From NCBI GenBank assembly GCA_020725425.1, contig DYFA01000005.1, positions 1 through 34,482 of the forward strand: 34,482 bases of DNA, given 5' to 3'. This document shows, piece by piece, positions 70-34,482 of the stretch. A model generated the notes under the pieces. The model was given only the letters and a program-made list of their open reading frames with translations, was not told the DNA's origin and ran no database searches. Origin of the DNA: Aneurinibacillus sp. Its GTDB lineage: Bacteria; Bacillota; UBA5301; DYFA01. Position numbers and translations under genes: made by a program. Numbering within the stretch: position 1 is the stretch's first letter; every line of letters begins with the position of its first letter.

Positions 70-129
70 GTATACTTTGATAAATATTTAAACCTGGACA
101 GAATTTCGGGTTGTTACCGGGAAGTGGCC

Positions 130-627
130 ATGAAACTTGGGATATGCCTGGATGAGGACATCATGCAGCTGCGAATACAGGCTGAGGAAGACGTAAAAAC
201 ATATGGAGCTGTTCTGTATGGCAAGTCATTCATTTACGGGAATACCCCTTTACTGGCCTTTGAGCTTTGCAGCTTCCTCTGCAGCCTGGGAATGATTCCG
301 ACTCTGCTCCAGGCCAGAGACTTATACGTCAATGACCACACCTATATCAGGGAGATCCTGGATATGGGCCATAACCCTCATGTATGTCGTATTGCCAACA
401 TTGCTCCCCTTCAGCAGCTCTATGGTGTTTTACAGCCAGATATCTATATCGGCCATGAAAATCCCGTCACTCTGATGGAGAAAGGGATTGTCCAGGTGGC
501 CATGGACGGGGTGGCAAAAAAGTTGGGCTTTGAAGTTCCTGTACTGGTGCTGAGCACCCTGGCTGACTCAGTCCGGGCCTTTGAGAATATGGTTGGAAAG
601 GAGCGCCGTCACTATGCGGCTTTATAA
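130..627 (+). CDS. nitrogenase component 1-like protein, C-terminal part (5'-truncated)
   Basis: This 165-residue product resembles only the C-terminal third to half of a nitrogenase component 1 subunit (NifD/NifE/BchN family, normally about 400-500 residues). Seen: a Rossmann-like segment starting near residue 25 (GAVLYGKSFIYGN), a GM-IPTLLQARDL stretch, and a PDIYIGHENPV motif near residue 105, typical of the last domain. The frame is open back to position 64 but has no earlier ATG, and the N-terminal cluster-binding domain is absent. I chose ATG 130 because GGGAAG lies five bases upstream; an in-frame GTG at 124 is equally possible. It overlaps the next gene by 14 bases. It is probably a truncated gene remnant. 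A short expressed subunit cannot be excluded because a promoter-like sequence precedes it. Confidence 0.6.
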   Translation: MKLGICLDEDIMQLRIQAEEDVKTYGAVLYGKSFIYGNTPLLAFELCSFLCSLGMIPTLLQARDLYVNDHTYIREILDMGHNPHVCRIANIAPLQQLYGVLQPDIYIGHENPVTLMEKGIVQVAMDGVAKKLGFEVPVLVLSTLADSVRAFENMVGKERRHYAAL

Positions 628-1888
628 ATACCTGCCGCAACCATCGGACAGGATGGGTACCCTGTGGGCGCTGGCCAGCATTAAAGATGCCTGTATCATA
701 GAGTATGGTCCTGCCGGCACCACCCATTACGCGTTGGAAGGACTGATGCAGTTTAATTCCCAGCTGGAAGCGCGGCTTTTTACCACCCACATGGACGAGA
801 ACGACATAATTATGGGGGACACTACCCGCCTGGAGGAAACCATCAGGGAAGTGGACGCCGTGCACAAACCGCCGGTAATATTTGTGTTGGCTTCAACTAT
901 AGCTGCTATCACAGGCACAGATATTGAGCGCATTTGTGATGGGTTACAGAAGGAAATAGGGGCCAGGCTGATCTGCTTTACCGGCGGCGGCTTCCGCGGC
1001 GATTATCCCGTAGGCATCAGGGAAGTGCTCACCACACTTGCCGAAAAACTGGTCAGGGCGCCTGAGGAAAAACTGGAGCATACGTATAACATCATTGGCA
1101 GCAACATTGATTTATACAATTTTGCCGCTGACTGCAAAGAAGTGAAAACCATCATGACGGATTGCTTTGGCCTTAGGCTTAACAGCGTATTCACCGCCGG
1201 CTCATCTGTGAAGCAAATTGAAGGTGCAGCCAGGGCTGGATTCAACTTGGTTTTAAGGGCGGAAGGGAGCGATTGCGCAGAAATTCTTAAACAAAAATTC
1301 GGTATGGACTATTATGTCGGTTGCCCCTATGGCTTCAGGGGGACATTACAGTGGGTGCGAAATGTTGCCAAAGCCTTCTCTCTTAAATCAAACGATATCT
1401 ACCTCTATCAGCAAATGGAAACGGGCAAAAAGTACCTGATGAAAATTAACCAGGTCTTGTTCAATTACAACAACTTAAACGTCGTTTTAGCTGGCACATA
1501 TGACTTTGTGACGGATATTTACCCCTTCCTTACAGAAGAGATTATGATTAATATCGAAAAGGTCATAGTTAACCACAGCCTGCGCGGAAAAGGCTACCGT
1601 CCGTCCACCGGCCCGCTGGAAAAAAAGCTGGTCATCAATCCCGGCGAGGAAGAAAAGGAGGGGATAATCAACTCGGTAGCACCAGAGCTTCTTTTGGGTG
1701 ACGGTGTGTTACTGGAAATGGGAGCCCATGTACCTGCCAGGGTGCAGGTGGCAAACCCTAATCCCCGGCATTATTGCCGCATTTATGATAACACGCCTTT
1801 TATGGGGTTTAACGGGGCTGTTTATCTGATTGAAACCATACTTAATCAGATCCACGCCAACCGTAAAGCTCTGAAAGCCAGATTTTAG
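614..1888 (+). CDS. nitrogenase component 1-like oxidoreductase (atypical, P-cluster Cys missing)
   Basis: A full-length 424-residue member of the nitrogenase component 1 superfamily (NifD/K/E/N, BchN/B, CfbD). The start is ATG 614, with GGAAAGGAG at 595-603, ten bases upstream; the in-frame ATG at 581 has no such site. Seen: the region that is usually HGPxGC reads YGPAGTTHYALEG (residues 31-43), so the usual P-cluster cysteine is Thr36. The segment that usually carries another ligand Cys reads ASTIAAITGTDI (93-104), with no Cys. C27 and C237 (VGCPYGFRGT) remain. The end reads PFMGFNGAVYLIETI, as usual in the family. It is therefore unlikely to be a nitrogen-fixing subunit or to hold a canonical P-cluster. 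No NifH-like reductase gene is in the window; one may lie to the left. Substrate unknown. Confidence 0.8.
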   Translation: MRLYKYLPQPSDRMGTLWALASIKDACIIEYGPAGTTHYALEGLMQFNSQLEARLFTTHMDENDIIMGDTTRLEETIREVDAVHKPPVIFVLASTIAAITGTDIERICDGLQKEIGARLICFTGGGFRGDYPVGIREVLTTLAEKLVRAPEEKLEHTYNIIGSNIDLYNFAADCKEVKTIMTDCFGLRLNSVFTAGSSVKQIEGAARAGFNLVLRAEGSDCAEILKQKFGMDYYVGCPYGFRGTLQWVRNVAKAFSLKSNDIYLYQQMETGKKYLMKINQVLFNYNNLNVVLAGTYDFVTDIYPFLTEEIMINIEKVIVNHSLRGKGYRPSTGPLEKKLVINPGEEEKEGIINSVAPELLLGDGVLLEMGAHVPARVQVANPNPRHYCRIYDNTPFMGFNGAVYLIETILNQIHANRKALKARF

Positions 1889-1902
1889 AAAGGGGCTTTA
1901 AG

Positions 1903-2415
1903 TTGAAGTCATTGGTAGTATACTCCAGCAAAACCGGCAATACCAAAAAAGTGGCGGAAGCGATTTATGAAGTAATGCCTGAAGGTGCAAAAATCTATCC
2001 TGTGGAGGAGGCGCCGCCACCGGACAGTTATGATTTTATAGCGCTCGGCTTTTGGGTGGACAGAGAAAATGCCGATAAAAAAGCGCAAGAATATATGGAC
2101 ACCATCAAAGGCAAAAAAGTAGCGCTGTTTGGCACATTGGGAGCGGAACCGGATTCTTGGCATGGTATCAACAGCATGAATAATGCCAGGAAAACAGTGG
2201 AGAGGGATAACCAAATTGTTGGTGATTTCCTTTGCCAGGGGAAAATTGATCCCAGGCTGACGGAAGCATTAGCAAAACTGCCACCCGATCATCCCCATGC
2301 CTTAACACCGGAGCGGGCCGCCCGTCATGAAAAGGCCAAAAACCACCCAAACGATGAGGATCTGCGTAGCGCGCAGGAATGTTTCAGGGATATAATCAGC
2401 CGTATTTTGCGATAA
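1903..2415 (+). CDS. flavodoxin-like protein
   Basis: A 170-residue protein starting at TTG 1903, with AGAAAGGGG eight bases upstream. The N-terminus VVYSSKTGNTKKVAEAI (residues 4-20) is the flavodoxin FMN phosphate-binding loop (S/T-x-T-G-N-T). A GFWVDRENADKKAQEYM segment near 49-65 and LFGTLGAEPDSWHG near 75-88 match the short flavodoxin-family proteins found in anaerobes, often beside redox enzymes. A helical tail of about 60 residues follows. It lies 14 bases after the nitrogenase-like gene and so is probably cotranscribed; an electron-donor role to that oxidoreductase is inference. A strong stem-loop follows. Confidence 0.8.
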   Translation: MKSLVVYSSKTGNTKKVAEAIYEVMPEGAKIYPVEEAPPPDSYDFIALGFWVDRENADKKAQEYMDTIKGKKVALFGTLGAEPDSWHGINSMNNARKTVERDNQIVGDFLCQGKIDPRLTEALAKLPPDHPHALTPERAARHEKAKNHPNDEDLRSAQECFRDIISRILR

Positions 2416-2422
2416 ATGCCAA

Positions 2423-2450
2423 AGGGGCTGTCTTAAATCGGACAGCCCCT
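2423..2450 (+). terminator. stem-loop downstream of flavodoxin-like gene
   Basis: AGGGGCTGTC (2423-2432) and GACAGCCCCT (2441-2450) form a perfect 10-bp stem with an 8-base loop, eight bases after the flavodoxin stop. No clear T-run follows, so termination is inferred from position and stem strength. Confidence 0.55.
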
Positions 2451-2484
2451 GCCATCAAGCTAACAATAGAAAAGGTGATGCTTT

Positions 2485-3876
2485 TTGCTTGACAAGTATG
2501 CCCGTGATTTAACCCGGGGCAACATGCTGGCCCACATTTTGAATTTTTCCGTCCCTATGTTTATCGGAAACATTTTACAATCGATTAATACCGCTATGGA
2601 CGGGATTTGGGTGGGGAGGTTTCTTGGCCCCGGTGCCCTGGGTGCTGTAGCGGTCACCTTCCCGGTTATATTTTTGCTGGTTTCGCTGGTGATGGGTCTT
2701 GCCATGGCCACAACTGTATTGGTATCACAGTATGCAGGTGCCAAAAACCCAAAAAAAATAATGGAAACAATATATAATTCGTTTATCTTGCTTTCAGTGG
2801 CAGGTTTTCTGATATCAGCAGCAGGCATAATTTTTAACAAGGCCATCTTGCAGATGATGAATGTGCCGCCGGAAATTATTTCTGCAGCCTCCGGCTACCT
2901 GGTAATTCTGCTTGGCGGTCTGATCTTTCTTTTTGGTTACAATGGTATAAGCGCCGTGTTAAAAGGGTTGGGCGATCCCAGAACACCACTTTTGTTTTTG
3001 GCCGTTTCAGTTGCATTTAACATTATCCTGGACCCGTTCCTTATTTTGGGTCTGGGATTTTTCCCGGAGCTTGGACTGTACGGCGCGGCACTGGCCACTG
3101 TCATATCCCAGTTTATAGCCTTTCTGGCGTCATTTGCTTACTTTGCCAAAAATACAATGACAGCCGGCTTACATTTCAGAGATTTAAAATATAGTAAGGA
3201 ACTGATGGTCAGAACACTGAAAATTGGTATTCCCACTGGCGTACAAGCAACTGTAATTGCAATGGCATCAATGTTTTTGGGGTCTATTATAAATTCGTTC
3301 GGAACATTGGCTGTGGCCGCATACGGTATCGCCACCAGCCTGGATAAAATGGCTATCGCCGTAGCTATGTCAATTACAGCCGCTGTTACCACCATAACTG
3401 CCCAAAATATCGGAGCAGGTAATGAGCATAATATAAAAGAAACACTAAAGTGGTCCTGGCTGCTGGTTATTGCTACGGGAACCCTGTTTTCTTCACTTGC
3501 CCTGTTCTTCCCGGAATTGATTCTCGGCATGTTTACCAAAGATCAAAGTATTATTCTGGTCGGCAAACAATATTTACGTATCGCAGCCCTGTCCTACATC
3601 CCGCTGTCTATCGGTTATGTTACAAACGGTGTGCTTAGAGGAGCTGGCGATACCTTCCCCGCCATGCTTTTTACCATGATAACACTTTGGGGTGTCAGGG
3701 TGCCTTTGGCAAAATTATTTGCAGTGCCGATGGGTGTCAGTGGAGTCTGGCTAGCCATTGCTGCCAGTTCCTTTATTGGCATGTTGCTTAGTACGACGTA
3801 TTACGCCACCGGCAGGTGGAAACCAAAGCATCTGACCACCATCCGGGCAGCAGTACATCAGTGGGGAAGGACTTAA
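2485..3876 (+). CDS. MATE family efflux transporter
   Basis: A 463-residue integral membrane protein with about 12 hydrophobic segments in two similar halves, the normal size for multidrug and toxin extrusion (MATE) antiporters. These export cationic compounds using Na+ or H+ gradients. Family signatures seen: FSVPMFIGNILQSINTAMDG near residues 18-37, GLGDPRTPLLF near 160-170, the second-half counterpart IGIPTGVQATVIAM near 249-262, and GVLRGAGDT near 383-391. The start is TTG 2485, with AAAGGTGAT six bases upstream; the nearby ATG at 2478 is out of frame. It has its own spacing behind the stem-loop at 2423-2450. The substrate cannot be told from sequence. Base composition matches the AT-richer left part of the window. 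Confidence 0.92.
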   Translation: MLDKYARDLTRGNMLAHILNFSVPMFIGNILQSINTAMDGIWVGRFLGPGALGAVAVTFPVIFLLVSLVMGLAMATTVLVSQYAGAKNPKKIMETIYNSFILLSVAGFLISAAGIIFNKAILQMMNVPPEIISAASGYLVILLGGLIFLFGYNGISAVLKGLGDPRTPLLFLAVSVAFNIILDPFLILGLGFFPELGLYGAALATVISQFIAFLASFAYFAKNTMTAGLHFRDLKYSKELMVRTLKIGIPTGVQATVIAMASMFLGSIINSFGTLAVAAYGIATSLDKMAIAVAMSITAAVTTITAQNIGAGNEHNIKETLKWSWLLVIATGTLFSSLALFFPELILGMFTKDQSIILVGKQYLRIAALSYIPLSIGYVTNGVLRGAGDTFPAMLFTMITLWGVRVPLAKLFAVPMGVSGVWLAIAASSFIGMLLSTTYYATGRWKPKHLTTIRAAVHQWGRT

Positions 3877-4063: not shown

Positions 4064-4966
4064 ATGATAAAAACCAAAGACAATCAGACTATCCTTTTAT
4101 TTGGGCGCGAATTTACAGCTTTGGATCTCTGGATAGTGACTGAAACCGTACGAAGGTTTCCCAAACTCAGTCGGACAGAACTGGCAAACACGATCTGTGA
4201 AAATCTCAAATGGGTGGCGCCAAACGGCCGCAACAAGGTTGAATCTTGTATTCAGCTTTTAGATCGACTGAATTCTGAGGGCAAGATAAAACTACCCGAA
4301 AAGCGGAGCCCAGGCAATAGAACGTCCAGGCGAGTCATTCCGACGGCAAAGACAGACGCTCCTGCCGACATCACAGGCAATCTGGCGGATGTGGGATCTG
4401 AATTGAAGCCTGTATTGGACAGATACGAGGTAAGCCTTTGGAACCAATATGTTGAACGCTATCACGCCCTTGGCTACAGGTTGCCTTTTGGCGCGCACCA
4501 GCGTTACTTCATATTATCTGACCGTGGTCAGCCACTTGGCTGCCTTCTGTTTTCTGCGGCCGCCTGGGCACTGGAGGCCCGGGACCATTGGATTGGGTGG
4601 ACAGCAACCGACCGCAGCAAGAGGCTGCACTTGGTTGTCAACAACACCCGTTTTCTCATCTTCCCGTGGGTTCATGTAAAAAATCTGGCCAGCAAAGCTT
4701 TATCCTTAGCGGCAAAGCGTATCGGTTACGACTGGCATGACCGTTATGGCTACAGCCCGGTGTTGCTGGAAACCTTTGTGGACCCGGAAAAATACCGGGG
4801 CACCTGTTACAAGGCAGCGAACTGGGTAATGTTGGGATGGACAGCGGGAAGGGGCCGGATGGACCGGTACAAACAATATCCATCTACCCCCAAACAAATC
4901 TATGTGTATCCCCTGCATCGTGATTTCCGGGCAATACTGCGTGGAGAAAGCGGGGGTGGCCAATGA
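4064..4966 (+). CDS. DruA-like DUF4338 domain protein
   Basis: This 300-residue protein matches the DUF4338 family whose best-known member is DruA of the Druantia anti-phage system. Seen: an N-terminal helical region (about 1-90) with TVRRFPKLSRTELANTICE, which looks like a helix-turn-helix-type segment. The DUF4338 core then runs from about 120 to 290 with YHALGYRLPFGAHQRYFI, GCLLFSAAAWALEARDHWIGW, LVVNNTRFLIFPWVHVKNLASKAL and YRGTCYKAANW. GGAGG lies eight bases before the ATG. No druB-druE genes are present, so this is not a complete Druantia locus. It is followed by transposase remains, and the reading frames overlap as ATGA. It is best read as an orphan DUF4338 gene carried by a transposable element; DUF4338 genes beside transposases are common. 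Activity unknown. Confidence 0.75.
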   Translation: MIKTKDNQTILLFGREFTALDLWIVTETVRRFPKLSRTELANTICENLKWVAPNGRNKVESCIQLLDRLNSEGKIKLPEKRSPGNRTSRRVIPTAKTDAPADITGNLADVGSELKPVLDRYEVSLWNQYVERYHALGYRLPFGAHQRYFILSDRGQPLGCLLFSAAAWALEARDHWIGWTATDRSKRLHLVVNNTRFLIFPWVHVKNLASKALSLAAKRIGYDWHDRYGYSPVLLETFVDPEKYRGTCYKAANWVMLGWTAGRGRMDRYKQYPSTPKQIYVYPLHRDFRAILRGESGGGQ

Positions 4967-7029: not shown

Positions 7030-9234
7030 TCAGGGCCGGGCCGAATCGACTGTCGGAGCGCTGAGGACTTCAGGCCCCCACCGGACGGGAGGCCGGTCGG
7101 CGACGAACACCTCATAGCTGTTCCGGAACACCTCACCCTCATACTCCAAGTCCAGGAGGACGAGGTACTTCCCCGGGATCGCAGGAATGAAGCTCAGTTC
7201 CCCCGGAGAGAAGGCGCGCGCGTCGGCCGGCAGCCGGGCGGAGAAGCGGCCGGCCGCCACTTCGTCGCCTGCCGGTCCGATGACCCTCGCCCGCGCCTCG
7301 ACCTGGGGGTAGCTGCGCAGCGAGTCGCTGGTAAGGTAGACCGGAAGGCGGACCGTCTCTCCCGGACGGTACGTGTCCTTGTCGAGCAGCGTGAAGACGT
7401 ACTCGGGGTGGTAACAGCGGGCCAGGTGGTGATAGGAGGCCTTCGGCACGCGCCAGTAATCCACCACCGCCCAGGAGACGGCGGGGTTTGGGTCGGCGAA
7501 GCTGAAGGCGAGCATGCCGCCGGTGGGCCGGTACTTGTGGAAGCGCAGCCGGTCGATGTAGAACTGGTTCAACCGCATCTGATACCACTGAGTCAGGGCG
7601 ATGAGGGTCTCCAGGTCCCGGCAGGCGTCGAGGTCGAGCCAAAGGCGCATGATATCGGGCTGCGCCGAGTGCCGACGGGCAAGGGTCTCCCAGTCGAGCC
7701 GGGCCAGGTCGGAGGCCATGAAGCGAACGGCGCTCTCCTTGTTGGGGAAACTCTGCGCCCCGAACTCCGAGAGGAACCGGATGTTCCGCGGGACAAGGCG
7801 GCGGACCAGGTCGAAGAGGCGAAGCGGCCCGTGCGTCTTGTACCAGCCGAAATACCAGTGGGTGTCCCCTCCCCGGTGGAGGAGGGCGATCTCACCCGAG
7901 GCCCGAAGGACCGGGCGGGAGGGGTCCTCCCGGCGGGCCGCCCGGGCGAGCCGCCGGTCCATCACGTCCCGGTTCCAGCTATAGACGAAGACGCTGAAAT
8001 CGGTCTTGAGTGCCCGCCCGAAGCTCTCGTCCTTCGTGTCGACCATGTAGACCGGCTCGTTGTGCATGCACCAGAGGGCGATCGAGGGGTGATTCCCCAG
8101 GAGGCGCACCATCTCCCGCACCTGGCGCTCCGCTTCCGGCATGACCTCCCGGGCGTACAGCCACTGCAGAGGGAAGTCCTGCCAGAGCAGCATCCCTTGC
8201 TCGTCCGCCGCCTCGTAGAACACCGGATGGTCAATATGAGCGTGGACCCGCAGCATGTTCATGTGGGCCGCCGCGGCCAGCTTCAGGTCGCCCTCGGCTC
8301 GTTCCCTGGTCACCCGGCTCAACCGGGCCTCCGGCGGCGGGTAGTTGTTCCCCTTGATGAACAGCCGCTCCTGGTTGACGTAGAAGACCCACTTGCGGAG
8401 AGCCACGGTGCGCAGGCCGGTCCGCACCTTCAGCCGGTCGAGGCTCGCCCCGTCCCGGCCGGCCAGAGTCGCCTCGACCTCATAGAGATGCGGCTCTCCC
8501 AGGCCGCGGGGCCACCAGAGACGGTATTGCTCGATTTCGCACTGGTAGGATAGCCGGTTCATCCCAGGCTGCAGCGGGGCGCGGAACTTGAAGACCTGGG
8601 TCTCCCCCACGAAGTTGGCCGGCGTGAAGGCGAGGGTCACCAGCGGGTCGGCGGCTTCGACGGCGTCGACGTCCAGCAAAACCCGAACCTTGGCGCTGCG
8701 TGTGTCGAAGCCGCGGGTCTCCACTCCCATCCAGGCAAGTCTGGCCGGACCGGTGACGAGCAGCTCGACCGGGAGCCACACCCCGCCCGGCTCAATCATC
8801 GGGTCCAGGTGGTCCCAATGGGAGAAGATGCCGGTGATGAGGCGCTTTCCAAGTTTGCGGGTTTCCGGGGGGCACTCCACCTCGAGGAGTAGCAGGTCGT
8901 CGCCGGTGAGCTGCCCCGTCACTTCGAAGTCGGCGGGGGCGAAGTATCCCTCGTGCGCCCCGAGGAGGCACCCGTTGAGGTAGGCGGAGTAGCGGTAGAA
9001 GACCCCGTTCAAGCGGAGGAAGTACCGTCGGCCCGGCTCCGGCCGGGAGACAACCCGGCGGCGGTAGACCACCCGGCCCGTGTACTGCTCAAGGGCGGGG
9101 TGCTCCTGCCAGTGGGCGGGCAGCTCTTGCTCCAGCCAGCCATCCCCCGGCCAGGGAGCCTGGCGCACCGCCGCCGAGAACTCCTCCACCGCTCTCAACT
9201 GCCAGGTCCCACTCAGGTTCAGGCGGTCCAGCAC
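7030..9234 (-). CDS. glycoside hydrolase family 2 protein (beta-mannosidase/beta-galactosidase type)
   Basis: A 734-residue GH2 enzyme. The start is GTG 9234, preceded by AAGGAGGGG with six bases spacing; the earlier in-frame TTG at 9252 lies upstream of and next to that site. Seen (numbering from the TTG, subtract 6 for the GTG): an N-terminal sugar-binding jelly roll (about 10-170) with [20 protein letters not shown], an immunoglobulin-like domain (about 170-285), then a TIM barrel (about 290-610). WCMHNEP carries the acid/base Glu399, and [11 protein letters not shown] the nucleophile Glu496. A further beta domain follows with [13 protein letters not shown]. There is no signal peptide, so it is predicted to be cytoplasmic. 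FIKGNNYPP resembles beta-mannosidase-type members, but the substrate cannot be fixed from sequence. It stands alone, with no sugar transporter beside it. Confidence 0.9.
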
Positions 9235-9422
9235 CGCCGACCCCTCCTTCAAGGTGTTGAACTCCAGCTTGTCTGATTTGGGCAGAAGCAGGCATGGCTG
9301 CTGGAAGTTTCACCAACACTATACCACCAGGAGTGGACTCATGAAAGTCTTCGTACTCACCCCTGCCTGCTTTTGACAACGCAGGAAGCGGCCACCTCGA
9401 CGCCGTATCTAGCGGTGAAGGG

Positions 9423-10317
9423 GTGACCGTTGTGGCCTTTATCGATCTGCGCAGTGACACCGTGACCCGACCGACGCCGGCCATGCGCCGGGCGATGGCC
9501 GAGGCGGAGGTGGGCGACGACGTCTTCGGCGAAGACCCGACCGTCAACGAGCTGGAAGCGGTCGGGGCGGACCTCGTGGGCAAGGAGGCCGCCCTCTTCG
9601 TCCCCTCCGGCACCATGGGGAATCAGGTGGCGCTCGCCGCCCACACCAGCCGGGGCGACGAGGTGATCGTGGACTCTGAGTCCCACATCTTCCACTATGA
9701 GAACGCCGGGCCGGCGGAACGGTCCTGCCTCCGGCGGAATTGGCGGCCCTGGCCGGCCTGGCTCACTCCCGGGGGCTCGCTGTCCACCTGGACGGGGCGA
9801 GGATCTCAACGCCGCCGCCGCAGTCGGGTACGACGTGCGGGAGTTCACCCGCCAGGCGGATTCGGTGATGTTCTGCCTTTCCAAGGGCTTGGCCGCTCCG
9901 GTCGGCTCACTGCTCGCCGGCAGCCGCGAGTTCATCGCCCGGGCACGCAAGCACCGGAAGCTGTTCGGCGGCGGGATGCGCCAGGCGGGGATCCTCGCCG
10001 CAGCGGGGCTCGTGGCCCTGCGGGAGATGGTCGGACGGCTGGCCGAGGATCACGCCAACGCCCACCGGCTCGGGGAGCTCCTCAGCGAGGTGCCAGGCCT
10101 CCGGGTGGACCTCGCCCGGGTCCAGACGAACATCCTGCTGGTGGACTTCTCCGGGACTAACCTCTCCGGCGAGGCCTTCCTGGCCAAGCTCCAGAAGGCC
10201 GGCGTCAAAGCGGTCGCCTTCGGTCCGACCGTCGCCCGCTTCGTCACCCACAAGGACGTCTCGGCGGCAGACGTGGACGAGGCGGCGGCCCGCATCCGAA
10301 AGGCCTTGGCAGAGTAG
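9423..10317 (+). pseudogene. low-specificity L-threonine aldolase, broken
   Basis: PLP-dependent aldolase (Thr to Gly + acetaldehyde), normally about 340 residues, here spread over three frames. Frame A from GTG 9423 gives [35 protein letters not shown] and [10 protein letters not shown]. At about 9707-9713 the text jumps to a second frame reading [19 protein letters not shown] and [10 protein letters not shown], skipping about 45 expected codons. At 9806 a missing base (ATCTCAAC where ATC TTC AAC is expected) moves to a third frame, which gives [18 protein letters not shown] and [14 protein letters not shown] with the PLP lysine, then continues to the stop at 10317. A deletion of about 135 bases plus a frameshift make it nonfunctional unless the assembly is wrong. 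Every block is otherwise well conserved, so inactivation looks recent. Confidence 0.85.
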
Positions 10318-28767: not shown

Positions 28768-30150
28768 TCAGCGGGCCACGCACTCCTCCAGCGCTTCCTC
28801 CACGCGGCGTACCGGGACGGCGGCCAGACCCTTTGGCAGGCGCAGGCCCTCCCGGTTGGTCGCCGGAATGACCGCCCGCGTGAAGCCTAGCTTGGCTGCC
28901 TCGCTCAGGCGGTATTCCAGCCGGGCCACGCTCCGGACCTCGCCGGCCAGCCCCACTTCCCCCACTGCCACCGTATCCTGCCCGACCGGAACGTTGCGCA
29001 GGCTCGAAGCAACCGCCAGCGCCAGGCCCAGATCGGCCGCCGGCTCCTGCACCCGCACTCCGCCCACGACGTTCACGTAAACGTCCTGGCTCCCGAGGGC
29101 GAGCCCGGCGCGCTTCTCCAACACCGCCAGGACGATCGCCACCCGGTTATAGTCCGCTCCGGTCACGAGGCGTCTGGGCGTGCCCATGAAGTTCGTCGAC
29201 CCGACCAGGGCCTGTACCTCCACCAGCACCGGCCGGGTGCCTTCCATCGCGGGTATCACGACAGAGCCGGCGGCGTTCGGCGGCCGCTCGGCCAGGAACA
29301 GGCGGGAGGGATTCTCCACCTCCGAAAGGCCGGCCTCGGTCATCTCGAAGATGCCGACCTCGTGGGTGGGTCCGAACCGGTTCTTCACCGCCCGCAGGAG
29401 GCGGAAGCTCGTCTGGCGCTCGCCCTCGAAGTAGAGCACCGTGTCCACGATGTGCTCGAGCACCCGGGGCCCGGCCAGCTCTCCGCTCTTGGTGACGTGC
29501 CCGACCAGAAACACCGGGACCGACGCCGCCTTGCCCCACCGCAGCAACGCCGCGGCGCATTCCCGCACCTGGGTTACGCTCCCCGGCGCTGCCGGGAGAT
29601 CGGGGTGGAAGACGGTCTGGATCGAGTCCACCACCACCGCCCGGGGGCGATTCCCGGCCAGGGCCGCCTCGATGACGGAGAGGTCCGTCTCGGCCAGGAA
29701 GAAGAGGTCCCCGCCCACTGCCCCGAGCCGCTCGGCACGTAGCCGCACCTGCTGCGCCGACTCTTCCCCCGAAATGTACAACACCGGGCCCAGAGTGGCG
29801 CCCAAGCTGTTCATGACCTGGAGGAGAAGGGTGGACTTCCCGATTCCGGGGTCTCCCCCGACCAGCACCACCGCGCCGGCCACGATTCCTCCGCCCAGCA
29901 CCCGGTCGAACTCGCGCAGTCCTGTCGGGGTACGCTCCTCCGGTGCGGCCCTGGCGTCCAAAAGGCGCAGCGGGCGCGCCTCACCGTTCCTCTTCTGAGT
30001 ACCGAGGGTCCGGGCAGCCGGTCCCGCCGCCGAGGAGGCGCGCTCCTCCACGAAGGCGTTCCAGGCAGAGCAGGCCGGGCACCGCCCCAACCACTTGGGG
30101 GACTCGTGGCCGCACTCCTGGCAAACGAAGACCGCCTTGCTCCTGCCCAC
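28768..30150 (-). CDS. radA: DNA repair protein RadA
   Basis: A 460-residue RecA-like branch-migration helicase. Seen: an N-terminal zinc finger with C10, C13, C24 and C27 (FVCQECGHESPKWLGRCPAC), Walker A GGDPGIGKST (98-107), SGEES, the RadA-specific KNRFG (256-260), and a C-terminal Lon-protease-like domain (about 340-460) with VYVNVVGGVRVQEPAADL. The start is GTG 30150 with AGAGGAGGT upstream. It has its own promoter at 30178-30207, separating it from the activase genes. Confidence 0.96.
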   Translation of the reverse strand: MGRSKAVFVCQECGHESPKWLGRCPACSAWNAFVEERASSAAGPAARTLGTQKRNGEARPLRLLDARAAPEERTPTGLREFDRVLGGGIVAGAVVLVGGDPGIGKSTLLLQVMNSLGATLGPVLYISGEESAQQVRLRAERLGAVGGDLFFLAETDLSVIEAALAGNRPRAVVVDSIQTVFHPDLPAAPGSVTQVRECAAALLRWGKAASVPVFLVGHVTKSGELAGPRVLEHIVDTVLYFEGERQTSFRLLRAVKNRFGPTHEVGIFEMTEAGLSEVENPSRLFLAERPPNAAGSVVIPAMEGTRPVLVEVQALVGSTNFMGTPRRLVTGADYNRVAIVLAVLEKRAGLALGSQDVYVNVVGGVRVQEPAADLGLALAVASSLRNVPVGQDTVAVGEVGLAGEVRSVARLEYRLSEAAKLGFTRAVIPATNREGLRLPKGLAAVPVRRVEEALEECVAR

Positions 30151-30177
30151 GCCTGACCTCCTCTGCCTAACTACCAT

Positions 30178-30238: not shown

Positions 30239-31243
30239 TCAACCGGCACAACTCAAACACTCCGACTCGTCGGGCCGTTGCACCGGCCGTTCGAGATCGC
30301 TCCACCTCCCGCACCGGTCGCCCCACCGGGCCTGCACCTCGCTGCCGAGGCGCACTTCCACGACCTCGCACCGGTTCGCGCAGCCCTGACATTCGAAGCT
30401 GGAGGTCCGAAAGTCGAACTCGCTGAGAGCGAAGCCCCGAAAACCGGTCCGGCCCGTCCGCTCGACCTCTTCCTTGGCCAGGAGCGCCACCCCGATAGCG
30501 CCCATCACCCCGTGGAAGGGCGGCACGATGACCGGCTGCCCCAGGTTTTTTTCGAACGCGGCCCGGATGCCCTCGTTGGCAGCCACTCCTCCCTGGAAGA
30601 CGACGGGTCCGAGAATCTGCTTGCCCCGGGCCACGTTGTTCAGGTAGTTCCGCACCAGGGCCTCGCAGAGCCCGGCGATAATGTCCTCCACAGCGTACCC
30701 CATCTGCTGCTTGTGGACCATGTCGGACTCGGCGAAGACCCCGCAGCGGCCGGCGATCCGCACCGGGTGCTTCGACCGCAGGGCGATCTCCCCGAACCGC
30801 TCGATCGGGATCCCGAGCCGCGACGCCTGGTGGTCGAGGAAGGAACCGGTCCCGGCAGCGCAGACCGTGTTCATGGCGAAGTCCACGACGACCCCGTCCC
30901 GGATCAGGATGAGCTTGGAGTCCTGTCCGCCGATCTCGAGGACCGTCTGCACCTCGGGGACGACCTTCAGGGCGGCGACGGCGTGGGCGGTGATCTCGTT
31001 TTTGACCACGTCCGCCCCGATCATCACCCCCGCCAGCCGGCGGGCGCTGCCCGTGGTGCCTGCCCCGCGCACGGCCACCCCCGGCCCTATCCGCCTGGCG
31101 AGCACCCGGATTCCCTCCTGCACCGCCCGGATGGGCTGGCCGTTGGTGCGGAGATAGAGGCTCTCGACGGCATTGCCGTCATCGTCGATCAGGGCCAGGT
31201 CGGTACTGACCGAGCCGACGTCGACTCCCAGATAGACCTCCAT
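30239..31243 (-). CDS. acyl-CoA dehydratase activase (BadF/BcrA ATPase family)
   Basis: A 334-residue ASKHA-fold ATPase of the type that drives one electron at low potential into 2-hydroxyacyl-CoA dehydratases, benzoyl-CoA reductases or double-cubane cluster proteins. Seen: VYLGVDVGSVSTDLALIDDD (phosphate 1 loop), LEIGGQDSKLILI, and the two cysteines that share the dimer-bridging 4Fe-4S cluster in NTVCAAGTGSFLDHQ (C128) and AGRCGVFAESDM (C167). The C-terminal extension has six more cysteines: CQGCANRC, GDRCGRW and ECLSC (residues 285-332). The next two genes are its likely partners. No dehydratase is in the window. Confidence 0.92.
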   Translation of the reverse strand: MEVYLGVDVGSVSTDLALIDDDGNAVESLYLRTNGQPIRAVQEGIRVLARRIGPGVAVRGAGTTGSARRLAGVMIGADVVKNEITAHAVAALKVVPEVQTVLEIGGQDSKLILIRDGVVVDFAMNTVCAAGTGSFLDHQASRLGIPIERFGEIALRSKHPVRIAGRCGVFAESDMVHKQQMGYAVEDIIAGLCEALVRNYLNNVARGKQILGPVVFQGGVAANEGIRAAFEKNLGQPVIVPPFHGVMGAIGVALLAKEEVERTGRTGFRGFALSEFDFRTSSFECQGCANRCEVVEVRLGSEVQARWGDRCGRWSDLERPVQRPDESECLSCAG

Positions 31244-31246
31244 GGA

Positions 31247-32371
31247 TCACCGCCTCCTGCGCTTCATAAGATCGACGAAAGCCTCGAGCCGCGTCAAGAG
31301 CCCGGCCTTGCCCGTCTGCTCGTCCAGCGTGATGGAGAGCACCGGCAGGGCGAACTCCCGGCTCACTCGCTCCAGCACGCTCTTGGCCACGATCTCGGGG
31401 ATGCAGGTGAACGGCGCCAGCTGGATCACCCCGTCGAAGCCCCGCTTCGCGTACATGACGGCGTGTCCCACCGAGTCCTGACCGTGGCCGCCGATCATCT
31501 CGCCGAGATAAGGCCCGGCCACCTCCTTCACCCTGGTCCGGTTGTACCGGCCGGGCTTGCCGAGAAGCTTGCTCTCCCTGGTCCAGCCGGTGAGGTAGAT
31601 CGAGCGCTCCGTCTCCACACCCATCTCCCCCAGCGCTTCCTCGATCTCAAGGTTGGCGGAGGGTTCGAGCAACACGTAGATCTCGCCGACGATGCCCACC
31701 TTGAGCGGCTCGTAGCCGCTTTTTTGCGGGACCTCCCGCAGCAGGCCTTCGGCCCGGCTGTACGCCTCGTCGATCTCCCGGGCACCCTGCGCCGCATAGA
31801 CCAACTGGAGGGCTTTCCGGTAAACCGGCGTGGTCGAACCGCGGACCAGCTCCCGTGCCCGCACCCGGTGGGAGAGGCGTTCCAGGCTGTCCAGCGCCCC
31901 TAGCTTCTTCAGGCCAGCCTGAATCAGCTTGATGATCTGCCAGGCGGAGAGCCCCTTCGCATTGAGAGCACTGATCTTGCCGAGGAAATCGCGCAGGTCG
32001 AGCCGGGGCGGCTCGAACACGATCACGTCGACCTCGTGTCCCAGGTCCCGCAGGATCAGCTCGTGGAGCGGGGCGTACTGCCCGGCCCGGCACGGCCCGA
32101 CTCCGCCGCTGGCCACGATGGTGTCCGCGCCCATCTCGATGGCCTCCAGGTAGGAGCCCATCAGGATCTTGTACGGGAGGCAGGCGAATTCCGGGGAGTA
32201 CTTCGTCCCCAGCGACAGCGTCCGGCGGTTGGGCCGGGGAGGTATCACCACCTCGTTGCCGAGGGCGGCAAGGACCTCCCGGAAGACCTCCGGGGAGGTC
32301 CCCATATACGGGAAGGTGACGACGCGTCGGCGGCGCTCGAACCGCCCGCGTTTCCTAACCGAGGCTGGCAA
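31247..32371 (-). CDS. activase-associated D-component-like protein (DUF2229/CoA-dehydratase type)
   Basis: 374 residues related to the 2-hydroxyglutaryl-CoA dehydratase D-component and DUF2229 proteins, which hold iron-sulfur clusters reduced by the BadF-type ATPase. Three cysteines in conserved-looking blocks, C64 (SPEFACLPYKILMGSYLE), C94 (ASGGVGPCRAGQY) and C323 (LAPFTCIPEIV), could bind a cluster. The C-terminus SITLDEQTGKAGLLTRLEAF closely matches the end of the next gene upstream, showing common ancestry. Its stop is three bases before the activase start. Its ATG lies inside the upstream gene's 3' end (17-base overlap), so all three form one operon. Substrate unknown. Confidence 0.85.
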   Translation of the reverse strand: MPASVRKRGRFERRRRVVTFPYMGTSPEVFREVLAALGNEVVIPPRPNRRTLSLGTKYSPEFACLPYKILMGSYLEAIEMGADTIVASGGVGPCRAGQYAPLHELILRDLGHEVDVIVFEPPRLDLRDFLGKISALNAKGLSAWQIIKLIQAGLKKLGALDSLERLSHRVRARELVRGSTTPVYRKALQLVYAAQGAREIDEAYSRAEGLLREVPQKSGYEPLKVGIVGEIYVLLEPSANLEIEEALGEMGVETERSIYLTGWTRESKLLGKPGRYNRTRVKEVAGPYLGEMIGGHGQDSVGHAVMYAKRGFDGVIQLAPFTCIPEIVAKSVLERVSREFALPVLSITLDEQTGKAGLLTRLEAFVDLMKRRRR

Positions 32372-33425
32372 TGCCCGACACCCCGCTTGACGCTTCCTTC
32401 GCTGCCCCGGCCCGCTCCGCCGCGCCCCGTCGCTTGCGCCGCCGGACCAGGTCCGTGAAGGCCTCCAGCCGGGTCATCAAGCCCGCCTCGCCCGTGTGCT
32501 CGTCGATCATCAGGGACATGAACGGCACCGCCTGGCGCTTCTTGGCCATCAGCTCTATCACCTTGTCCACCACCGAATCCGGGCCGCACCCGAACGCAGT
32601 CAGGTGGATGAGGCCGTCGATCTCTTCCGGCCGCTCCAGATAGTAGTGGGCGGCCCGGACCGCCTCGTCGCTGTACGTCCAGAAGAGGTCCTTGCGGAGC
32701 ACCTGGCAGGCGGAGAGTTCCCGCGGTGGCACCATCTCCACGGTGACCGGTTCGACCCCCAATCGCCGGAGTTTGCCCAGGAGATCCAGGCTGAGGTAAC
32801 GGTCGTGGACGATGTAGGGATAGCCGACTACCGCGAAACGCAGCCCGCCTGTCGCCTGCCCGCCGGTCTGCCGCTCCAGCGCGCCCATCGCCGCCTGCGG
32901 GCCCAACCCGCTCACCAACAGCCTCTTATAACGGCGCAGATCGGTGAGCGAATGGCCCAGGGCGCGCAGGATGCGGAGCTTGTTCCCCGTGAAGAGCCGC
33001 CCCACTTTGAATGCTGCTCGTAAAAGCTCCAGCCGTCCCGCCCGGGCGTCGAAACGGACGTCGATGAGGCGGGGCAGGTCTCGGACCGAACTCCGGATCA
33101 TGTCCGGCAATCCGAGGAACTTGGGGCAGTAGACGGTGCGGCGATTGGTGCATACCACCCGGGGGAGGAAGAGAAAGTCCACCTTCTTCGCTACCAGGTC
33201 CAGGACGTGCCCGTGCATCACCTTGACCGGCACGCAGGCGTCGGTCACCGCCACCCGTACTCCGTCGTCCAGGATCTGCTTGCTCGTGTGGCCGGACGCC
33301 ACGACCTGGGCGCCGAGTTCCGCAAAGAACCGCTTCCACATCGGGAAGTAGGTGTAGTAGAACAGAGTGCGCGGGATCCCGACGCTCACCCCGGCGGCGG
33401 TTCTTGCGCTCAGTGCTTCGTCCAT
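32355..33425 (-). CDS. activase-associated DUF2229 protein
   Basis: 356 residues from ATG 33425. The frame is open to TTG 33569, but the extra 48 codons cover a likely promoter (TTGACC at 33569). Seen: VSVGIPRTLFYYTYFPMWKR, the usual DUF2229 opening; TDACVPVKVMHGHV (C64); VVCTNRRTVYCPKFLGLP (C92, C100); LTAFGCGPDSVVDK; and the end SLMIDEHTGEAGLMTRLEAF. The cysteines suggest an iron-sulfur cluster. It is the first gene of the three-gene activase operon. A GGGAGG lies about 11 bases before the ATG. Confidence 0.87.
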   Translation of the reverse strand: MDEALSARTAAGVSVGIPRTLFYYTYFPMWKRFFAELGAQVVASGHTSKQILDDGVRVAVTDACVPVKVMHGHVLDLVAKKVDFLFLPRVVCTNRRTVYCPKFLGLPDMIRSSVRDLPRLIDVRFDARAGRLELLRAAFKVGRLFTGNKLRILRALGHSLTDLRRYKRLLVSGLGPQAAMGALERQTGGQATGGLRFAVVGYPYIVHDRYLSLDLLGKLRRLGVEPVTVEMVPPRELSACQVLRKDLFWTYSDEAVRAAHYYLERPEEIDGLIHLTAFGCGPDSVVDKVIELMAKKRQAVPFMSLMIDEHTGEAGLMTRLEAFTDLVRRRKRRGAAERAGAAKEASSGVSGIASLG

Positions 33426-33654: not shown

Positions 33655-34482
33655 TCACGAAGTAGCCGGGGCGGCGGCTTTGAAGACCACTTTGTCCTCC
33701 TCGGCATCCACCAGGACCGCGTCGCCCGGCTTGAACCGGCCCTGGAGCACCTCCTCGGCCAGGGGGTTCTCGACCAGATGTTCGATCGCCCTCCGCAAGG
33801 GCCGGGCGCCGTACTCGGGGTCGAAGCCCTTCTTGGCCAGGAGCTCCCGAGCAGCGTCGCTGATCGTGACGTGGAGTCCCGTGTCCTTGAGCCGCTTCAG
33901 GAACTGGTCGATCATGATGTTCACGATCCGTTTGATCTCGTCCTCGGTCAAGGCGTGGAAGACGATGATCTCGTCCACCCGGTTCAGGAACTCCGGCCGG
34001 AAGGTCTTCTTGAGTTCCTCCAGCACGTGGTCCTTCATCTCCTCGTAGGATTGGATCTCGCCCTTCGGGCCGGTCGTCCGGAAGCCCAGGGCGGTCCGTT
34101 TCAGCTCCCGGGCGCCCACGTTCGAGGTCATGATGAGGATGGTGTTGCGGAAGTCCACCGTCCGGCCCTTGCCGTCGGTCAGCCGCCCGTCCTCCAGGAC
34201 CTGGAGCAGGACGTTGAAGACCTCCGGGTGGGCCTTCTCCACCTCGTCGAAGAGCACCACCGAATAAGGCTTCCGGCGGACCTTCTCTGTCAGCTGACCG
34301 CCCTCGTCGTAGCCGACGTAGCCCGGCGGAGCTCCGATCAGGCGGGCCACTGTGTGCCGCTCCTGGTACTCCGACATGTCGAGCCGGATCATGGCGTCCT
34401 CGTCGCCGAACATCGCCTCGGCCAAAGCCCGGGCGAGCTCCGTCTTGCCCACGCCGGTCGGGCCGAGGAAGATGAAGGAGCC
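33655..34482 (-). CDS. clpC: ATP-dependent Clp protease ATPase subunit ClpC, C-terminal part
   Basis: The 275 residues seen run off the right edge, so about two thirds of the roughly 810-residue protein is missing. Present: the second AAA+ domain from Walker A ([20 protein letters not shown]), [20 protein letters not shown] (pore loop GYVGYDEGG follows), Walker [16 protein letters not shown], the sensor segment [13 protein letters not shown], and the D2-small domain [20 protein letters not shown]. It unfolds substrates for ClpP and represses competence and stress regulators in Firmicutes. It is the first core gene in the minus-strand order. Confidence 0.95.

Follow-up and report, generated by a model that had tools for sequence, protein, structure and literature searches.

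Here we analyse a three-gene locus carried on a stretch of 34,482 nucleotides (nt) from Aneurinibacillus sp. (assembly GCA_020725425.1, contig DYFA01000005.1), referred to below as the window, which encodes a BadF-type activase (ACT) and two related DUF2229-type proteins (P2 and P3). All three open reading frames (ORFs) are intact and follow one another on the minus strand in the order P3, P2, ACT, between clpC and radA, as a first-pass annotation of the same sequence had described; clpC lies upstream, and radA and disA lie downstream. The end of P3 overlaps the start of P2 by 17 nt and only 3 nt separate P2 from ACT. The locus is genuine and its genes are closely coupled. Their positions in the window are given here together with the immediate flanks and with their counterparts among the domains of the plasmalogen synthase PlsA, to which we return below.

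32355-33425, minus strand: P3, 356 aa, ATG start, DUF2229; counterpart of PlsA Red1
31247-32371, minus strand: P2, 374 aa, TTG start, DUF2229-like; counterpart of PlsR and of PlsA Red2
30239-31243, minus strand: ACT, 334 aa, BadF/HgdC-type ATPase; counterpart of PlsA Act2
30311-30391, minus strand: four-Cys extension of ACT, CxxCxNxC...C, residues 285-311
33655-34482, minus strand: 3' end of clpC (partial; flank, outside the system), Pfam AAA_2 and ClpB_D2-small
28768-30177, minus strand: radA (flank, outside the system), assigned by Pfam

We consider it likely that the trio is a self-contained, ATP-dependent P3:P2 reductase of the benzoyl-CoA reductase (BCR)/2-hydroxyacyl-CoA dehydratase (2-HAD) radical-enzyme superfamily, belonging to the DUF2229 branch exemplified by PlsA/PlsR and Ger and split into three subunits.

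Fold, cysteine sites and activase

P3 is a clear member of DUF2229 (Pfam PF09989, E 1e-47) and P2 a weaker one (E 1e-9), and the two are homologous to each other (25% identity over 357 columns, E 6e-20). Both also match the dehydratase profile HGD-D (PF06050) through a C-terminal block only, at 25.8 bits for P2 and 20.4 bits for P3 against a cut-off of 28.4, and neither gave a full-length PF06050 match above that cut-off. The relatedness of the two partners and their common C-terminal block, both proposed in the first-pass annotation, are thus borne out. The same block (window 31247-33425, minus strand) further shows a match to positions 67-151, in the N-terminal part, of the model for methanogenesis marker 15 (TIGR03286); the later part of that model matches the activase, so that block and activase are apparently fused in that family.

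AlphaFold2 models, built from 50 homologues for P2 and 23 for P3, reached pLDDT values of 90.8 and 91.4, respectively. When searched against the PDB with Foldseek (E<1e-4), both models matched only the double-cubane cluster protein (DCCP), HadBC, BzdNO and MbdON, with a probability of 1.00, and the top 15 matches of P2 all belonged to the DCCP, HadC, BzdNO and MbdON class. TM-scores to these matches ranged from about 0.40 to 0.59, and P2 and P3 therefore have a fold common to the superfamily while their relation to its known members is distant. On the strength of these models, both proteins are predicted to be subunits of the 2-hydroxyacyl-CoA dehydratase/benzoyl-CoA reductase/DCCP fold. The earlier remark that no dehydratase follows the activase is therefore valid only in the sense of a distinct, classical HGD-D gene, since P2 and P3 are themselves predicted to be of the dehydratase fold.

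Each partner has exactly three invariant cysteines: Cys64, Cys94 and Cys323 in P2 (71/71 sequences) and Cys64, Cys100 and Cys280 in P3 (69/69). The third of each set aligns with the cysteine of the conserved C-x-P motif in HadC (3o3m_B) and DCCP (7yyl). In the benzoyl-CoA reductase BzdNO, BzdO binds one [4Fe-4S] cluster through Cys95, Cys128 and Cys380, and BzdN binds a double cubane through Cys36, Cys73, Cys100, Cys263, Cys293 and Cys327 (PMC11971306). Because P2 and P3 each possess three invariant cysteines, as BzdO does, each fits one [4Fe-4S] cluster, and we infer that both carry such clusters. Direct support for a P3:P2 unit comes from the two closest relatives (L098 and L099), in which P3 and P2 are fused as one ORF of 767-769 aa; the same fusion was found at three further loci (L077-L079).

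ACT is a BadF-type ATPase, as previously proposed (PF01869, E 6e-47; NCBIfam TIGR00241, 177 bits, above cut-off), and its sequence matches that of HgdC in the PDB (1hux, E 3e-35). Cys128 and Cys167, invariant in 59/59 homologues, are expected to hold the [4Fe-4S] cluster that bridges the activase dimer. Beyond the region matched by HgdC lies the cysteine-rich extension noted in the first-pass annotation, although just four of the six cysteines counted there (C285, C288, C292 and C311) are conserved (59/59 homologues).

Relation to PlsA, PlsR and Ger

The first-pass annotation had missed that characterised homologues with the same domains and cysteines exist, namely the plasmalogen synthase PlsA/PlsR of Clostridium perfringens and the glycerol ester reductase Ger. 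PlsA is described as comprising the domains Act1, Act2, Red1 and Red2 (PMC12838417); the protein of L. cremoris has been expressed in published work, and plsA/plsR orthologues have been reported in Listeria (PMC9702350). Ester-to-ether chemistry has been attributed to Ger, which is homologous to PlsA and includes activation domains (PMC8788747, PMC13274423); the Ger candidate in T. maritima is Tmari_0479.

Several lines of evidence align the trio with these enzymes, P3 corresponding to Red1, P2 to Red2/PlsR and ACT to Act2, with the reductase halves in the same order. A P3 profile matches residues 668-970 of Listeria PlsA, that is, Red1 (whole-protein E 1.8e-45), and a P2 profile matches Fusobacterium PlsR, or Red2 (E 1.1e-23), where the Listeria and Fusobacterium proteins were classed as PlsA-type by similarity and architecture. 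All six reductase cysteines of P3 and P2 are common to PlsA-type Red1 and Red2. The four-Cys extension of ACT is present in PlsA Act2 and absent from Act1, and ACT is 29-34% identical to the former versus 27-28% to the latter. Two relatives each encode one ORF, of 1418 or 1488 aa, with the layout ACT-ACT(extension)-P3-P2, the shorter of which is 51% identical to a Listeria monocytogenes protein over 99%. Red2 is also a separate gene in Fusobacterium and C. perfringens. However, PlsA fuses Act1-Act2-Red1(-Red2), whereas the trio consists of three genes with one activase domain and lacks Act1, and no fused PlsA was found in the host genome. Ger, or modified PlsA, of Thermotoga maritima (Tmari_0479) and Desulfatibacillum likewise belongs to the DUF2229 family but differs in having two activation domains within one protein; PF09989 scored above cut-off in the control genome of T. 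maritima and also gave matches in that of L. lactis. A further arrangement, in which a two-domain activase gene lies beside a fused P3-P2 gene, was seen at three loci (L089, L090 and L091), which sit on a long branch of their own in the tree.

From these sequence comparisons, the trio appears to be a distinct, distant and widespread split variant of the PlsA-type enzymes. A number of observations weigh against too close an equation of the two. P3 and P2 are just 18-23% identical to PlsA, and the PlsA-type sequences, including two from named records, group together as a separate clade with 100/100 support, on a very long branch away from all split trios; since the tree program warned of long branches meeting, the exact rooting is unsure. 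Low identity and a separate clade imply that the substrate may differ from that of PlsA. Two genomes (G021 and G031) contain split pairs alongside a full-length PlsA-like protein, which argues against the two kinds being simply redundant. Among the loci of the window type (group A, below), no lipid genes recurred as neighbours, and the function of PlsA homologues that have no activation domain has been called unclear (PMC13274423).

By analogy with the known members of the superfamily, ACT would form a homodimer that takes an electron from ferredoxin or flavodoxin, and ATP would drive this electron at very low potential from the ACT dimer into a [4Fe-4S] cluster of the P3:P2 heterodimer. One of the two clusters of the heterodimer, with its three cysteines and one free iron site, would then reduce an acyl carbonyl or ester through single-electron (ketyl) chemistry. 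We propose both of these steps, the ATP-gated electron transfer and the subsequent reduction, on the same analogy.

Two substrate assignments are compatible with this general mechanism. The first, to which we give a little less than an even chance, is that P3:P2 reduces a non-lipid substrate, such as a carbonyl derived from a cofactor, sugar or amino acid, in a reaction new to the superfamily. Besides the low identity to PlsA and the separate clade, this would suit the near-ubiquity of the family, a P2-family match being present in 55 of the 61 genomes of our phylum sample (host included), and its presence in Melainabacteria, which together suggest a core anaerobic role; it would also suit the position of a trio in Monoglobus near dapF and LL-diaminopimelate (LL-DAP) aminotransferase and of a second group of P3-P2 pairs (group B) beside lysA. 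Against it, none of our observations points directly to such a substrate, and the neighbours of group A vary. The second, more tentative assignment, a refinement of the split-reductase proposal that does not exclude it, is that the trio is a true ether-lipid enzyme, converting phospholipid acyl esters into vinyl ethers (plasmalogens) or alkyl ethers in the manner of PlsA/PlsR and Ger. Homology colinear with PlsA/PlsR, the common set of cluster cysteines and the near-invariance of P2 R95, Y99, E230 and N240, which extends to PlsA Red2, all favour this assignment, as does the absence of a fused PlsA from the host, which leaves the trio and its paralogue as the only candidates there. The deep separate clade of the trio, the fact that some genomes have a PlsA-like protein as well and the want of linked lipid genes count against it. 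Judged from sequence, a membrane-lipid ester reduced to a vinyl or alkyl ether could still be the likeliest single substrate class, although we favour it with distinctly less than even confidence.

Should the trios prove to produce ether lipids, the origin of such lipids in bacteria could be put to the test in many more anaerobes; some bacterial ether lipids are used as palaeoclimate proxies. According to a 2026 survey, PlsA homologues devoid of an activation domain occur in Bacillota (PMC13274423); our results suggest that at least a portion of them could be split systems with the activase encoded by a separate and often adjacent gene.

Search for a separate dehydratase and comparison with known systems

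It is very improbable that ACT serves a classical dehydratase or DCCP encoded elsewhere, with P2 and P3 as accessory proteins. ACT does resemble generic activators, and full-length HGD-D proteins are present in many other relatives. However, a PF06050 search of the whole host genome (2.38 Mb, 96.85% complete), which answers the call of the first-pass annotation for a search for unlinked dehydratases, returned nothing above cut-off and no full-length HGD-D protein, its three weak matches being the C-terminal blocks of the host's own DUF2229 proteins. About 15 genomes of the phylum sample (host included), 13 of which are at least 90% complete, contain a strong P3-P2 pair and lack a full-length HGD-D, as determined by comparing two result lists by hand. 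Similarly, eight Gastranaerophilales/Melainabacteria genomes, for which no completeness values were available, each have one ACT match (58-61% identity) and the P2 family without a full-length HGD-D match; the ninth genome of that search, a Prometheoarchaeum metagenome-assembled genome (MAG), does contain HGD-D. Because no full-length HGD-D occurs in the host, in the roughly 14 other pair-bearing genomes or in the eight Melainabacteria, the DUF2229 pair is the only visible partner of the activase there, and a dehydratase elsewhere is largely refuted for the host genome. The extension that ACT has in common with PlsA Act2, and not with HgdC, argues in the same direction. Taken with the predicted fold, these results make it most likely that the two partners are themselves the cluster-bearing enzyme, as the first-pass annotation had suspected.

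Two activases with a Cys-rich tail are encoded in the host genome, ACT itself and an orphan paralogue directly upstream of prs (L005, G000:C52, 1486-2466), which has the four-Cys extension and 71% identity to ACT; one more BadF protein is presumably GlcNAc-kinase-like. Among loci L129-L176, which derive mostly from Gastranaerophilales/Melainabacteria, the P2 family is mostly unlinked to an activase, and some genomes have several DUF2229-like matches. One MAG of Prometheoarchaeum (L172) and one of Nealsonbacteria (L161) also carry a trio.

The trio can be set against three known systems. With 2-hydroxyacyl-CoA dehydratases (HadBC and HgdAB, with activators HgdC/HadI) it has in common the fold of P2 and P3 and an HgdC-type activator, but its HGD-D match is restricted to the C-terminal block and below cut-off, and nothing points to CoA binding or to a dehydration reaction. 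The class I benzoyl-CoA reductases (BzdNO and MbdON) resemble it in fold, heterodimer logic, ATP-driven electron supply and the BzdO-like three-Cys cluster site, but BzdN carries a six-Cys double cubane. Furthermore, the acid/base residues of BzdO are Glu65 and His131, the latter three residues past the second cysteine (PMC11971306), whereas at this offset P2 has Gly97 and P3 has Phe103. DCCP with DCCP-R is the best structural neighbour of P2 and P3, but it has six cysteines per subunit rather than three and is a homodimer rather than a pair of different subunits.

The comparison with double-cubane cluster proteins drawn in the first-pass annotation is not supported: DCCP (7yyl) is the top Foldseek match for both proteins and the best PDB sequence match for P3, but three invariant cysteines per subunit where six are needed, and a score of 10.7 bits against a cut-off of 350 for the NCBIfam double-cubane model NF040772, lead us to reject this identity as highly unlikely.

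Genomic neighbourhoods and other features of the window

The trio is common in anaerobic bacteria and needs no separate dehydratase. Loci of the window type (group A) form a clade with a support of 99 and usually follow the order P3-P2-ACT. The first-pass annotation had raised the question of whether the trio is always linked to clpC; none of the 23 group-A loci in relatives lies in the vicinity of clpC or radA. One locus, L177, has the arrangement P2-ACT-radA-disA-carD, which reproduces the radA side alone and implies that the clpC-radA position is common to few lineages only; we regard this position as incidental. Group A showed no recurrent functional neighbours beyond a synteny with genes that we take, from reading their sequences, to be fur-, surE- and folE-like, and this at no more than 5 loci.

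The second P3-P2 pair of the host (L004, G000:C28:25000-44000, 7852-10163) lies between spoVAD/spoVAE-like genes and lysA and has no adjacent activase. In 35 of the 61 genomes, group B pairs of this kind have spoVAD, a spoVAE-like gene, lysA, a site-2 protease or scpA as neighbours; as 53 of the 61 contain SpoVAD, it is the linkage, rather than mere co-occurrence, that is informative. We found no literature linking spoVA to such activases. Melainabacteria are not known to sporulate, and the presence of relatives there indicates that the family itself is not sporulation-specific. A broader proposal, which we regard as unlikely though worth stating, is that the split DUF2229 trios are a major branch in their own right among PlsA-type ATP-driven ester reductases, present as one housekeeping copy and a second copy at a spoVA-lysA sporulation locus; many anaerobic Bacillota would then have a dedicated reductase, perhaps acting on lipid esters of the spore membrane, among their sporulation genes.

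In Monoglobus pectinilyticus (L179) a complete trio is closely followed by dapF and the LL-diaminopimelate aminotransferase gene. This neighbourhood and the lysA linkage of group B hint at a repeated connection with the DAP/lysine pathway. At least one trio, that of Monoglobus, bears the annotation of a 2-hydroxyacyl-CoA dehydratase and its activase, a label liable to lead to mistaken pathway predictions.

Of the remaining features in the window, a sigma-70-like site at 30207-30178, immediately upstream of radA, is a consensus match only, and a GGGGAC...GTCCCC palindrome between clpC and P3 showed no genome-wide enrichment (10 matches versus 17 for the reversed control). A DruA-domain protein (PF14236, E 1e-45) is encoded at 4064-4966 on the plus strand, with no other Druantia genes noticed nearby among those neighbours that were annotated, which were not all of them. 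Finally, the plus-strand interval 124-3876 encodes nitrogenase component-1-like proteins (Oxidored_nitro; best NCBIfam model NifE, far below cut-off) and, after them, a BilS-like flavodoxin and a MatE transporter; this cluster is possibly another ATP-driven low-potential reductase.

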